Positions 21,265 through 24,791 of a stretch of 36,553 nucleotides of DNA are shown here, one piece after another. Source of the stretch: Candidatus Izemoplasma sp. GTDB lineage: Bacteria > Bacillota_I > Bacilli_A > Izemoplasmatales > Izemoplasmataceae. Location: NCBI GenBank assembly GCA_029939945.1, contig JAOZRX010000014.1, positions 1 through 36,553 of the forward strand, written 5' to 3'. The position numbers were made by a program, and so were the translations under genes. Each line of letters begins with the position of its first letter. The stretch's first letter is position 1. The notes under the pieces are model-generated. The model was not told where the DNA came from, did no database searches, and worked only from the letters and a program-made list of their open reading frames with translations.

Positions 21265-21297
21265 AAAAGATAATGCTAAAAAGCATTATCTTTTTTT
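21265..21297 (+). terminator. Terminator after the purine nucleoside phosphorylase
   Basis: AGATAATGCT (21268-21277) pairs perfectly with AGCATTATCT (21282-21291) around AAAA, with outer A-T pairs and a T7 run. Confidence 0.92.
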
Positions 21298-21316
21298 AAT
21301 AAAATATTTTTTTTAC

Positions 21317-21346
21317 TTGACATTATGACACCGTGTCAACTATAAT
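21317..21346 (+). promoter_or_regulatory. Promoter with embedded palindromic operator (TetR type)
   Basis: The -35 is TTGACA (21317-21322) and the -10 is TATAAT (21341-21346), 18 bases apart. The spacer contains the perfect palindrome TGACAC-C-GTGTCA (21326-21338), and the -35 TTGACA together with TGTCAA (21334-21339) forms a second, wider inverted repeat. A protein bound here would block RNA polymerase directly. The TetR-family gene in the same operon (23554) is the obvious candidate repressor. Confidence 0.8.
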
Positions 21347-21396
21347 GGAAAATGTAGATTTTTACAGAAATAACTTACACACATATGGAGGAAACT

Positions 21397-23535
21397 ATGA
21401 GTAAATATACTAGCTTTATAATAAAAAGAAAAAAATTATTGATTATTATATTAATGCTATTGAATGTTTTTGCTATTATTGGAATTACAAAGATTAAACT
21501 AAATACTGATTTTTCGATGTTTAGTCCTGATGAATCAGTTTATGAAGATAGATTAGAAGATCTTGAAGAAATTTTCGGTGAATTGAATCAGCTTGTTGTT
21601 GTGGTTGAACATAATGACTTTACTAATGGAACTATTTCAGAATTAAGAGATGTTCAAGCGCAAATGGAAGATATGGATAATATTGTTTATGTCCAAGGTG
21701 TTACACCAGAGTTTGTATTAATAAACTCAATTAATGTACCTATTGAAAGCATTAGTGCAGGTGATTTAGAAACTTATTATAGTAATTTTTCAGATTTTTC
21801 TCCATTGACAAAGAAAGATGATGTCTATTATTCATCATTTACAGTTTTCTTAACCAATGATTTTAATAAAGATGATATTAAGACTATTGAAAACATATTA
21901 GATGATACTTCATACACATCTTATATTTCGGGAGATTTATATAATCAATTAAAAATAAGTGACTATATAATAAAAATATTAATGTTTTTACCTCCATTGA
22001 CAATATTAGTAATTCTTATTGTCTTTAGATGGCAAATGGGAGCGATTAAGCCAACACTACTTAGCGTATTACCAGCAGGAATTGGTTCTTTGTGGACATT
22101 TGGTATTATAGGATGGATAGGAAATGAAGTTTCAATATTAACAGCAATAGTTCCAATATTTATAATTGTAATTGGGTCTGCTGATGGACTCCATTTTATG
22201 TCTCATTTCCAAGATTCAAAAAAAGAAGGAAAAGCCAATATTAAATCTTTGAACGAAACTTTACAGATTGTTGGAATTCCAATGATTGTAACAACATTAA
22301 CATCCATGGTAGGATTCATTTCATTGTTATCAATGAATACTAATAGTATCTTTGACTTGGCAGTCTTTTCAGCTTTAGGAATTTTACTTGCCGGGGTTGC
22401 TACTTGGTATGTTCTTACATTATTACTTATTGATAGTAAGAATATATTGCCGAAAAAGGAACATATAAAAAGAAAAGATGTTGGACTATATTTAAGAAAA
22501 TTATGGGGATTCAAAATTATATTTGTAATAGTGTTTATTATTATAGGGAGTTTATTTGCTTATGGTAATATTAATAATGAATTTAACATGTTGATGATAT
22601 ATAAAGACTACACTGTTGTTAATAAAAATGCTGAAAAGATTACTGAAGTTAATGGGGGTAGTATTCCTGTATTTGTAACTGTTGAATTGGATAATTCAGT
22701 TTTAAGTTTAGACTCGATGGATGAAGTGAACTCTTATGTAGAGAGTTTAGAAAAATTAGATGAAGTAAATAAAATCGTTAATCCATATGCATTATTCAAT
22801 ATTGTTTATCAGAATATTGGAGATGGAGATATTCCAAATGATGGTGTTATCCAAATGCTTTACAATAATATAACTACTGATGAAAATAGTGTGATTAATA
22901 ATTTAGTGTCAGTTGATTCCAATGTTGTTAGACTTCTAGTTTTCCCTAGAGATTTAAATAATAAGACACTATCTGTAATCGAAGAAGAAGCTCAATCTTA
23001 TAGTGATAATATTAGTGTTACAGGAGTTCAGTATTTAATGAAAGACTTAAATGTAAATATTCAAGAAATGCAACTATTTAGTATTTTGTTGGCTCTTGGA
23101 GCGGTATTTGGAATGCTGATTCTAACTTTAAGAAGTATTAAGATAGCATTCTATAGTTTGCTTCCAATAATCATTACTGTTATATCTCTTTATGGATTCC
23201 TTGGAATTAGTACTATACCTCTAAACATTACTACTGTAATTATATTTAGTATAACAATCGGAGTAGGAATTGATTATGCTGTTCACTTTAGTAGTGTATA
23301 TAGACATTACTTAAAAGAGGGTAATAACAATAATTTAGCAATTGAAAAAGCATATAATAATACTTCGAGACCTATTATAACTAATGCTTTGGGAATATCT
23401 TTAGGATTAAGCATTTTAATGCTTTCTCCACTTACAATTCATCTCAATGTATCTTTACTGATGTGGATATCAATGATTGTAGGTGTTGTCATTACTCTGA
23501 CACTATTACCTTCGATATTTAGACAAAAATCATAA
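21397..23535 (+). CDS. MMPL/RND family exporter (HAE3-like)
   Basis: A 712-residue membrane protein with the duplicated RND plan: span 1 (residues 13-30), an outside domain (about 31-190), spans 2-6 including GSADGLHFMSHF at 260-271, then a repeat with span 7 near 370, a second outside domain, and spans 8-12 with GVGIDYAVHFSSVYRHYLKE. The two GxxxG/A-DxxHF segments are typical of MMPL and HAE3 proteins, which export lipids, sterol-like or other hydrophobic compounds using the ion gradient. It acts without a visible adaptor or outer-membrane channel, in line with a single-membrane cell. ATG 21397 has GGAGG 5 bases upstream; ATG 21385 overlaps that site. The substrate is unknown. Confidence 0.88.
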   Translation: MSKYTSFIIKRKKLLIIILMLLNVFAIIGITKIKLNTDFSMFSPDESVYEDRLEDLEEIFGELNQLVVVVEHNDFTNGTISELRDVQAQMEDMDNIVYVQGVTPEFVLINSINVPIESISAGDLETYYSNFSDFSPLTKKDDVYYSSFTVFLTNDFNKDDIKTIENILDDTSYTSYISGDLYNQLKISDYIIKILMFLPPLTILVILIVFRWQMGAIKPTLLSVLPAGIGSLWTFGIIGWIGNEVSILTAIVPIFIIVIGSADGLHFMSHFQDSKKEGKANIKSLNETLQIVGIPMIVTTLTSMVGFISLLSMNTNSIFDLAVFSALGILLAGVATWYVLTLLLIDSKNILPKKEHIKRKDVGLYLRKLWGFKIIFVIVFIIIGSLFAYGNINNEFNMLMIYKDYTVVNKNAEKITEVNGGSIPVFVTVELDNSVLSLDSMDEVNSYVESLEKLDEVNKIVNPYALFNIVYQNIGDGDIPNDGVIQMLYNNITTDENSVINNLVSVDSNVVRLLVFPRDLNNKTLSVIEEEAQSYSDNISVTGVQYLMKDLNVNIQEMQLFSILLALGAVFGMLILTLRSIKIAFYSLLPIIITVISLYGFLGISTIPLNITTVIIFSITIGVGIDYAVHFSSVYRHYLKEGNNNNLAIEKAYNNTSRPIITNALGISLGLSILMLSPLTIHLNVSLLMWISMIVGVVITLTLLPSIFRQKS

Positions 23536-23553: not shown

Positions 23554-24195
23554 ATGCCTAAAAAAATGTTTTTAAATATTTCTAAAGAAAAACAGAAAAA
23601 GATTATCAATGCAGCAATAAAAGAATTTACGAGTAAATCATTTGAGAAAGTTAGCGTAAACTCTATTATTAAAATAGCTGATATTCCAAGAGGATCTTTC
23701 TATACTTATTTTGATAACTTGGAAGATTTATTCAATTATATTATGGTCCAAATAAAGGAAGAAAGATTTATGTATGCAAGACAATTAATTACTAATTCAA
23801 ACAATGATTTTTTTACTTTTATAAAGAAAATATTTGCATATGATTTTGATTCTTATTCAAATAAATATAGATATTCTCTATTTAGAAATTATATTCACTA
23901 TATTCAGTACTATAAAAAAGGATCTTTAAAGAATGATTTACTTATTCCAATGGTTCATTCGATTGATAAAGGTGAAAAACTATCTGAATTATTCAATTTT
24001 AAGAAATATAAATTAAGTATAAATGAGTATTTGGATATTATGGAAATGTCTATGGTATTAATGATTAATACATTTTTAAAGTCTGAGTCTGAAAATATAG
24101 AAAAAGACTTAGCTATTGCATTATTTAATCGCCGAATGGATATTATTAAGTTGGGCATAATTCAAAACAAAAAGAACGAGGAGGAAACAAAATGA
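23554..24195 (+). CDS. TetR/AcrR family transcriptional regulator
   Basis: A 213-residue repressor. Residues 12-60 form the TetR DNA-binding domain: KIINAAIKEFTSKSFEKVSV leads into the helix-turn-helix IIKIADIPRGSFYTYFDN. The rest is a ligand-binding helical domain that varies widely between members, so the inducer cannot be told. It follows the exporter by 18 bases with ribosome binding site AAGGAG (23541-23546), and its TGA overlaps the next ATG. The palindrome TGACAC-C-GTGTCA in the operon promoter fits a TetR-dimer operator, so autorepression with release by an exported or hydrophobic ligand is likely but inferred. Confidence 0.9.
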   Translation: MPKKMFLNISKEKQKKIINAAIKEFTSKSFEKVSVNSIIKIADIPRGSFYTYFDNLEDLFNYIMVQIKEERFMYARQLITNSNNDFFTFIKKIFAYDFDSYSNKYRYSLFRNYIHYIQYYKKGSLKNDLLIPMVHSIDKGEKLSELFNFKKYKLSINEYLDIMEMSMVLMINTFLKSESENIEKDLAIALFNRRMDIIKLGIIQNKKNEEETK

Positions 24196-24791
24196 TTGTA
24201 GTTCCATTTGTGATAATATTCACATTACTTGCATTTTATCAAGGAAAATTTATTCGTAAACATAATGTTAAGTTTTATATAGGGGCATCAATTCTAAGCG
24301 TTATTGCCTTCCTGATTGCCGACAAAGTAAAAATAGTTGAACCATTTATCCAAGGATATTTTGGGTTAAGCTTGTTGTATATAGTTATGGTTACCGGAGC
24401 ATTAAACAAGAAATCAAAACTTAGTTCAAAACTAGCTGGTGTAAGAAGAGAGTATTCGATTATTGGATTTATTTTATTAACACCCCACTCATTAAATTAC
24501 TTTATTGAATTTTTAAGTGACATTACTAAAATTCAAGAGTGGTTAGGAATTGTAGCTTACGCCATCATGGTTCCGCTATTTATAACATCATTTATGGTAT
24601 TTAGGAAGAAGTTTACTTTCAAAGGATGGAAGAAATTACAAAGATGGGCGTACTTATCATATATTTTGATTTTCTTGCATTTAATATTGGTTGCTAAGAT
24701 GCCTAATCTAGTGATCTATATTGTTCTATTTACCCCATACATTTATTTCAAAATTGTTAAAGAATTAAAAATATATAAAAAAAAGAATTGA
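24192..24791 (+). CDS. Ferric reductase-like / MsrQ (YedZ)-like membrane protein
   Basis: A 199-residue protein with about six membrane spans. The arrangement GVRREYSIIGF...LLTPHSLNYF with H99 and KKLQRWAYLSYILIFLHLIL with W152 and H163 matches the haem-b-binding spans of the ferric-reductase-like/MsrQ fold (Arg pair before one span, LxRWxYxxxxxxxxH at another). Known members carry electrons across the membrane to a periplasmic or extracellular partner. No partner such as MsrP is visible. It overlaps the TetR stop (ATGA at 24192-24195), so it is part of the exporter-regulator operon. The family call is by pattern only; confidence in haem binding is moderate. Confidence 0.65.
   Translation: MIVVPFVIIFTLLAFYQGKFIRKHNVKFYIGASILSVIAFLIADKVKIVEPFIQGYFGLSLLYIVMVTGALNKKSKLSSKLAGVRREYSIIGFILLTPHSLNYFIEFLSDITKIQEWLGIVAYAIMVPLFITSFMVFRKKFTFKGWKKLQRWAYLSYILIFLHLILVAKMPNLVIYIVLFTPYIYFKIVKELKIYKKKN

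Follow-up and report, generated by a model that had tools for sequence, protein, structure and literature searches.

A predicted autoregulatory TetR operator in the promoter of an Izemoplasma MMPL transporter operon and a putative residue-to-base rule in its TetR group

The operator of HrtR, the haem-responsive TetR regulator of hrtRBA in Lactococcus lactis, is a 15-bp site. HrtR (PDB 3vok, 3vox and 3vp5) governs an autoregulated operon that includes a transporter, the ABC system HrtBA, and its haem ligands are His72 (PMC11442138) and His149. In Staphylococcus aureus, the TetR protein FarR controls the MmpL/RND pump FarE (PMC12671165); the two genes are divergent, with several operator sites. 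TetR_0692 of Clostridium thermocellum is autoregulatory and is reported, from DAP-seq and EMSA, to bind TGACCACGTGGTCA before its own gene, a perfect palindrome that is unique in the genome (PMC8457756). Finally, FhtR, a TetR protein of Enterococcus faecalis, has its palindromes in the region of the -10 and -35 elements of a promoter driving haem efflux, and its operator is TTATCAATCGATAA (PMC7858072).

The locus analyzed here lies in a 36,553-nucleotide stretch of DNA from Candidatus Izemoplasma sp. (contig JAOZRX010000014.1), hereafter the window, and resembles each of these systems in part. As in hrtRBA, a transporter is encoded in what we predict to be an autoregulated operon, whereas the transporter is of the MMPL type and the HrtR haem ligand His72 is not kept in the TetR protein. 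An MMPL/RND pump and a TetR regulator occur together as in FarR/FarE, but in a single operon with a single operator. The predicted operator is, like that of TetR_0692, a perfect palindrome, found once in the assembly, whereas the TetR_0692 half-site ends in C and has a spacer of 4, as in the Lys46 proteins of the N4 branch described below. Its position within the promoter recalls FhtR, but its letters are unrelated to those of the FhtR operator. The features of the locus are as follows.

21317 to 21322, + strand: -35 hexamer TTGACA, from sequence and promoter scoring; identical or one base off in relatives.
21326 to 21338, strandless: predicted TetR operator TGACACCGTGTCA (TGACAC-C-GTGTCA), with half-sites at 21326-21330 and 21334-21338.
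21341 to 21346, + strand: -10 hexamer TATAAT, from sequence and promoter scoring.
21387 to 21391, + strand: ribosome-binding sequence GGAGG, from sequence, upstream of the probable start codon (21397).
21397 to 23535, + strand: MMPL/RND transporter gene, from profile matches, in a frame open from 21385.
23554 to 24195, + strand: gene for a TetR-family repressor with recognition helix IPRGSFYTYF, including Arg46, from a profile match, a structure model and alignments.
24192 to 24791, + strand: gene for a Ferric_reduct-type membrane protein, whose start has a 4-base overlap with the tetR stop.

The operon thus runs, on the + strand, from the MMPL transporter through TetR to the ferric-reductase-like membrane protein, and the tetR gene is its second, as a first-pass annotation of this DNA had recorded. 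The same annotation had described a perfect TetR-type operator between the -35 and -10 elements of a near-consensus promoter. An exact palindrome does fill that spacer, and the hexamers are in fact perfect: the promoter scores 12/12 as TTGACA-N18-TATAAT, with an 18-base spacer. Since seven promoter-like sites were found in the kilobase around positions 21317-21346 against 6.6 expected, a promoter-like match is by itself weak evidence. For the palindrome with up to two mismatches, 0.21 occurrences are expected per window, and the single place found is exact. Positions 21267-21300 hold a hairpin rich in AT (AAAGATAATGC/GCATTATCTTT), which is followed by T and ends just before the promoter; it probably terminates transcription of the purine nucleoside phosphorylase gene, and it is absent from the list returned by the terminator scan.

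The suggestion that the -35 element and TGTCAA form an outer repeat of the operator was not upheld. The centre between TTGACA and TGTCAA (21334-21339) falls at 21328 and that of the palindrome at 21332, so the pair cannot be an outer arm of the same palindrome, and the -35 hexamer simply repeats the left half-site in direct orientation, 8 bases upstream of it. As the hexamer remains TTGACA in Lys-type relatives, where the half-site reads TGACC, its likeness to the half-site is owed to the promoter, and we rejected it as an operator arm.

Profile searches place the MMPL protein above the Pfam MMPL cut-off (88.6 bits against 20.5) and, over nearly its full length, below that of the HAE3 subfamily TIGR00921 (129.1 bits against 351.9). 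Its translation more likely starts at 21397 than at 21385, because of the GGAGG sequence at 21387-21391 and because most relatives begin with M-x-K-Y. The TetR protein carries a TetR_N helix-turn-helix (35.5 bits, cut-off 24) and is modelled with an all-helical TetR fold (pLDDT 92.7). In the Ferric_reduct-type protein, His99 and His163 are invariant across nine homologues, and the product of this third gene may bind haem. Proteins of its type often pair with TetR proteins of the window's type.

Structural comparison of the modelled TetR returned, among the best 50 matches listed, many named TetR regulators at Z scores of 13-16. By analogy with FarR/FarE, we slightly favour a lipid signal as a guess at the ligand, with the MMPL protein exporting free fatty acids or other lipids that TetR senses. 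The kinship of FarE, itself an MmpL/RND pump under a TetR regulator, and the appearance of the lipid-binding TetR proteins FadR and DesT among the structural matches are consistent with this reading, but farR and farE are divergent where the window genes form one operon, and matches at Z 13-14 are common to many TetR proteins, QacR included. We hold lipid sensing only tentatively, as somewhat less likely than not.

Haem sensing in the manner of HrtR or HatR, with the MMPL protein exporting haem and the Ferric_reduct-like protein acting as a haem-binding partner, appears improbable. Admittedly, the PDB entry closest in sequence is HrtR (E 3e-13, residues 1-91), and its holo form is the best structural match among those listed (Z 16.1, rmsd 3.4 over 179 residues, 22% identity; next match 14.5). 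The two invariant histidines of the third gene's product point the same way, as do two genes of HrtR type (60% identical over 91 residues, with His72 retained) in two genomes of the same class, both of one genus, which share the TGACA-N3-TGTCA core with the window. In both (L172:2200-2246 and L173:2200-2246), two copies of the core stand before the gene upstream of tetR, at the head of the operon, one of them overlapping that gene's start. However, in an alignment covering residues 1-92, the haem ligand His72 of HrtR falls on Arg71 of the window TetR, invariant in seven aligned sequences, and His115 of the window TetR is replaced by Tyr in a relative (L039). A common DNA-binding helix accounts for the common operator without a common ligand, and HrtR matches only at Z 13.9 in its DNA-bound form and at 13.6 in its apo form, level with many TetR proteins.

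Whatever the ligand, the identity of the operator can be addressed through its conservation. The subclade of the window TetR comprises 12 loci (the window, L032-L040, L043 and L184); the contig of L036 ends before the promoter, which leaves the window and ten testable relatives. The first-pass reading had been made to depend on the palindrome persisting in relatives, and an exact TGACA-N3-TGTCA precedes the first gene of the operon in the window and in all ten. Ten of the 11 loci have the core between the -35 and -10 elements, nine of them exactly; L034 has a spacer copy with one mismatch and an exact copy downstream of the -10 element, and in L040 the site is downstream of a possible -10 element. 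In nine loci registered on the operator, L040 and L184 not among them, identity is 0.96 and 1.0 in the two half-sites, values that this registering favours, 0.44 at the three central positions and 0.34-0.40 in the flanking sequence. In the same loci it reaches 0.96 in the -10 element, a value free of such bias, and 0.78 in the -35 element, which is shifted by one in L043. The conserved part is hence TGACA-N3-TGTCA, the central three bases varying among relatives.

The genes around the site are less constant. No MMPL gene is present in the operon in three of the 12 loci (L032, L033 and L038), where the operator stands directly before tetR; since these loci keep both site and TetR without the transporter, the constant pair is site and TetR. 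A Ferric_reduct-like gene follows in eight of the 11 loci whose sequence extends that far (L043 is truncated). Pairs of operators, in many cases spaced 22-28 bases apart, occur in L032, L034, L039, L055 and many of L187-L256; one of the two copies carries a mismatch in L032 and L034.

The genome-wide search for the palindrome that the first-pass annotation had proposed locates TGACACNGTGTCA once in the assembly (1.72 Mb, 84.75% complete), with no occurrence of the reversed control pattern. The TGACA-N3-TGTCA core occupies three places, one at this locus and the other two upstream of a paralogous tetR, all of them ahead of tetR-containing operons; as three is near the single place of the reversed control, it is the position of these sites, and not their number, that constitutes the evidence. 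The paralogous gene (L041:5848-6453; G000:C133) is followed by two ABC-transporter genes, and its two operators lie 28 bases apart upstream. Its product has His at position 72, the place of a HrtR haem ligand, and is a candidate haem sensor. Altogether, 13 TetR_N matches were detected in this assembly, of which 12 exceed the cut-off. An N4 core in the assembly (G000:C122), at the end of an open stretch, before another start codon and with no recognised tetR, was taken as chance (control 3), and a TGACC core occurs nowhere in it. The likely targets in this assembly are the window operon and, through possible cross-talk, the paralogous operon.

To follow the site beyond the subclade, we assembled a first set of 131 TetR loci, consisting of the window, ten relatives and 120 homologues from 101 genomes, the homologues being taken in list order down to E ~9e-12. 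In an open count of all 5-letter palindromes with spacers of 0-8 in the 200 bases before 129 tetR genes, TGACA-N3-TGTCA was the most frequent (56 loci), followed by TGACA-N4-TGTCA (43) and then, among independent words, by CCTAC-N4-GTAGG (13). CCTAC-N3/4-GTAGG was rejected as an operator: the 20 matches listed precede T-rich sequence, and we read them as terminators of the upstream gene. Counted per locus over all 131, 57 have the N3 site, 43 the N4 site, 12 an N3 and two an N4 site with one mismatch, and 17 none. The 14 loci with only a mismatched site include one of Lys type. Seven of the siteless loci, including the window, have the site before the MMPL gene and seven are of Lys type; the remainder are L036 (off the contig), L144 (at a contig edge) and L170, which has neither the RGSFY helix nor a site. 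The sites tend to lie in promoters, a promoter of at least 9/12 surrounding 60 of 115, compared with 9.5% of positions drawn at random from these sequences; two exact sites occur in 30 of the 115 promoters and three in one.

A second, named set of 80 tetR loci, mostly from Lachnospiraceae and other Clostridia and coinciding with first-set places in at least 10 cases, was gathered by demanding RGSFY[TN]YF or YSLFRN[YF]I, so that it is silent on other helices. TGACA-N3-TGTCA lies within 300 bases of 69 of these 80 genes. Among the other 11, six follow an MMPL gene, one (L222) carries three sites of N4 type, and the last four lack a site. On a 139-row tree, which adds L222, nine N3 rows and the four siteless loci of the named set, L222 groups among the N4 proteins. 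The four (L232, L250, L253 and L254) have the RGSFYTYF helix without TGACA-N3-TGTCA in the 300 bases upstream and form one clade inside the N3 proteins; this clade is so far a true exception to the rule proposed below.

Operator class (N3, N4 or Lys-type) follows the TetR phylogeny, with two changes on the tree against 43.6 for shuffled labels; the 125-row tree left out L036 and L144, whose operator region is off the contig, L170, and three proteins of fewer than 180 residues. In the structure model, the recognition helix spans residues 46-52 and is opened by Arg46, which is invariant in 64 mostly N3-type TetR proteins. Eight TetR proteins of the first set instead have Lys46, in I[SP]KGSFYQYF, and at the same promoter position they have TGACC-A[CG]T-GGTCA (seven exactly, L124 with one mismatch), whereas TGACC-N3-GGTCA is found within 200 bases upstream in none of the other 123 loci. 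A scan for TGACCACGTGGTCA across 391 genomes of the class of G440 (Clostridia bacterium) found the word seven times; five occurrences immediately precede a tetR gene encoding I[PA]KGSFYQYF, and the other two have none within 1.5 kb. When a Lys-type TetR was used to query 24 genomes of the named loci, 20 matches were obtained. No match was itself of Lys type, and 18 of the 20 have TGACA-N3 or -N4 sites within 300 bases; most were already in the named set.

We placed the five Lys46 proteins with N4 sites on a 71-row tree built from a random 26 of 43 N4 and 30 of 70 N3 rows, with three long-branch rows omitted. They nest with the N4 proteins (99; this tree has SH-aLRT support alone, and the rows L172 and L053 are long in it), apart from the eight Lys-type N3 proteins. 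Spacer length changes once on this tree and Arg/Lys twice, each time together with TGACA/TGACC. Because Arg and Lys differ within both spacer classes, the exchange has occurred at least twice, each time with the A/C change; residues linked to the spacer are not separable from shared descent, since the trees show a single change of spacer. These comparisons suggest that in the large [RK]GSFYxYF group of TetR proteins (MPxxxF...) residue 46 probably determines position 5 of the half-site, which is TGACA with Arg and TGACC with Lys, while the branch of the family sets a spacer of 3 or 4. Such an Arg/Lys operator rule was not found in the literature searched, which was open-licence, with most subscription journals outside it.

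The association of the site with the TetR type, and the joint change of half-site and residue 46, is an observed covariation. It makes it very unlikely that the palindrome belongs to another regulator, or that the operon's own TetR acts elsewhere, as the site travels with the window's TetR type across genomes and neighbouring genes. Speaking for another regulator is the paralogous TetR with the same operator core, whose existence makes cross-talk possible. A chance palindrome in an AT-rich promoter, for which one might cite the reversed core pattern occurring once in the assembly, is refuted by retention in all ten testable relatives amid variable middle and flanking bases.

The 13-base palindrome is thus very probably the operator through which, much as with HrtR, the operon's own TetR is predicted to repress its operon, by blocking RNA polymerase. 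For this locus we infer binding, repression, a ligand and a direction of transport as follows. A TetR dimer would place one recognition helix, starting at Arg46, in each TGACA half-site; the position of the site and the biology of TetR proteins suggest that a dimer on 21326-21338, between the -35 and -10 elements, would exclude RNA polymerase from the promoter. The operon would in this way keep its own TetR, MMPL transporter and membrane protein repressed as long as no ligand released TetR; the ligand is probably hydrophobic and a compound that the transporter handles. Because the operon would repress its own repressor, the release could be quick. The first-pass annotation had proposed a self-controlled efflux switch with an exactly located site. 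Self-control and the site are supported by the relatives, by tetR homologues with other neighbours and by the covariation with the recognition helix, whereas efflux is inferred from the neighbouring MMPL/RND gene, which is missing in a quarter of the subclade.

Taken as a locus, this is an ordinary, well-conserved autoregulated TetR operator, a kind of switch already known, and the Arg/Lys rule is of more interest than the locus itself. The analysis fixes a predicted operator and a likely regulon in a lineage that is most likely uncultured and wall-less. It also points to two independent natural switches of specificity, each associated with an Arg/Lys exchange, and offers a testable residue-to-base rule. 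If this rule is true, the operators and regulons of many unstudied TetR proteins in the Izemoplasmatales, other Bacilli and Clostridia would be readable from protein sequence alone.
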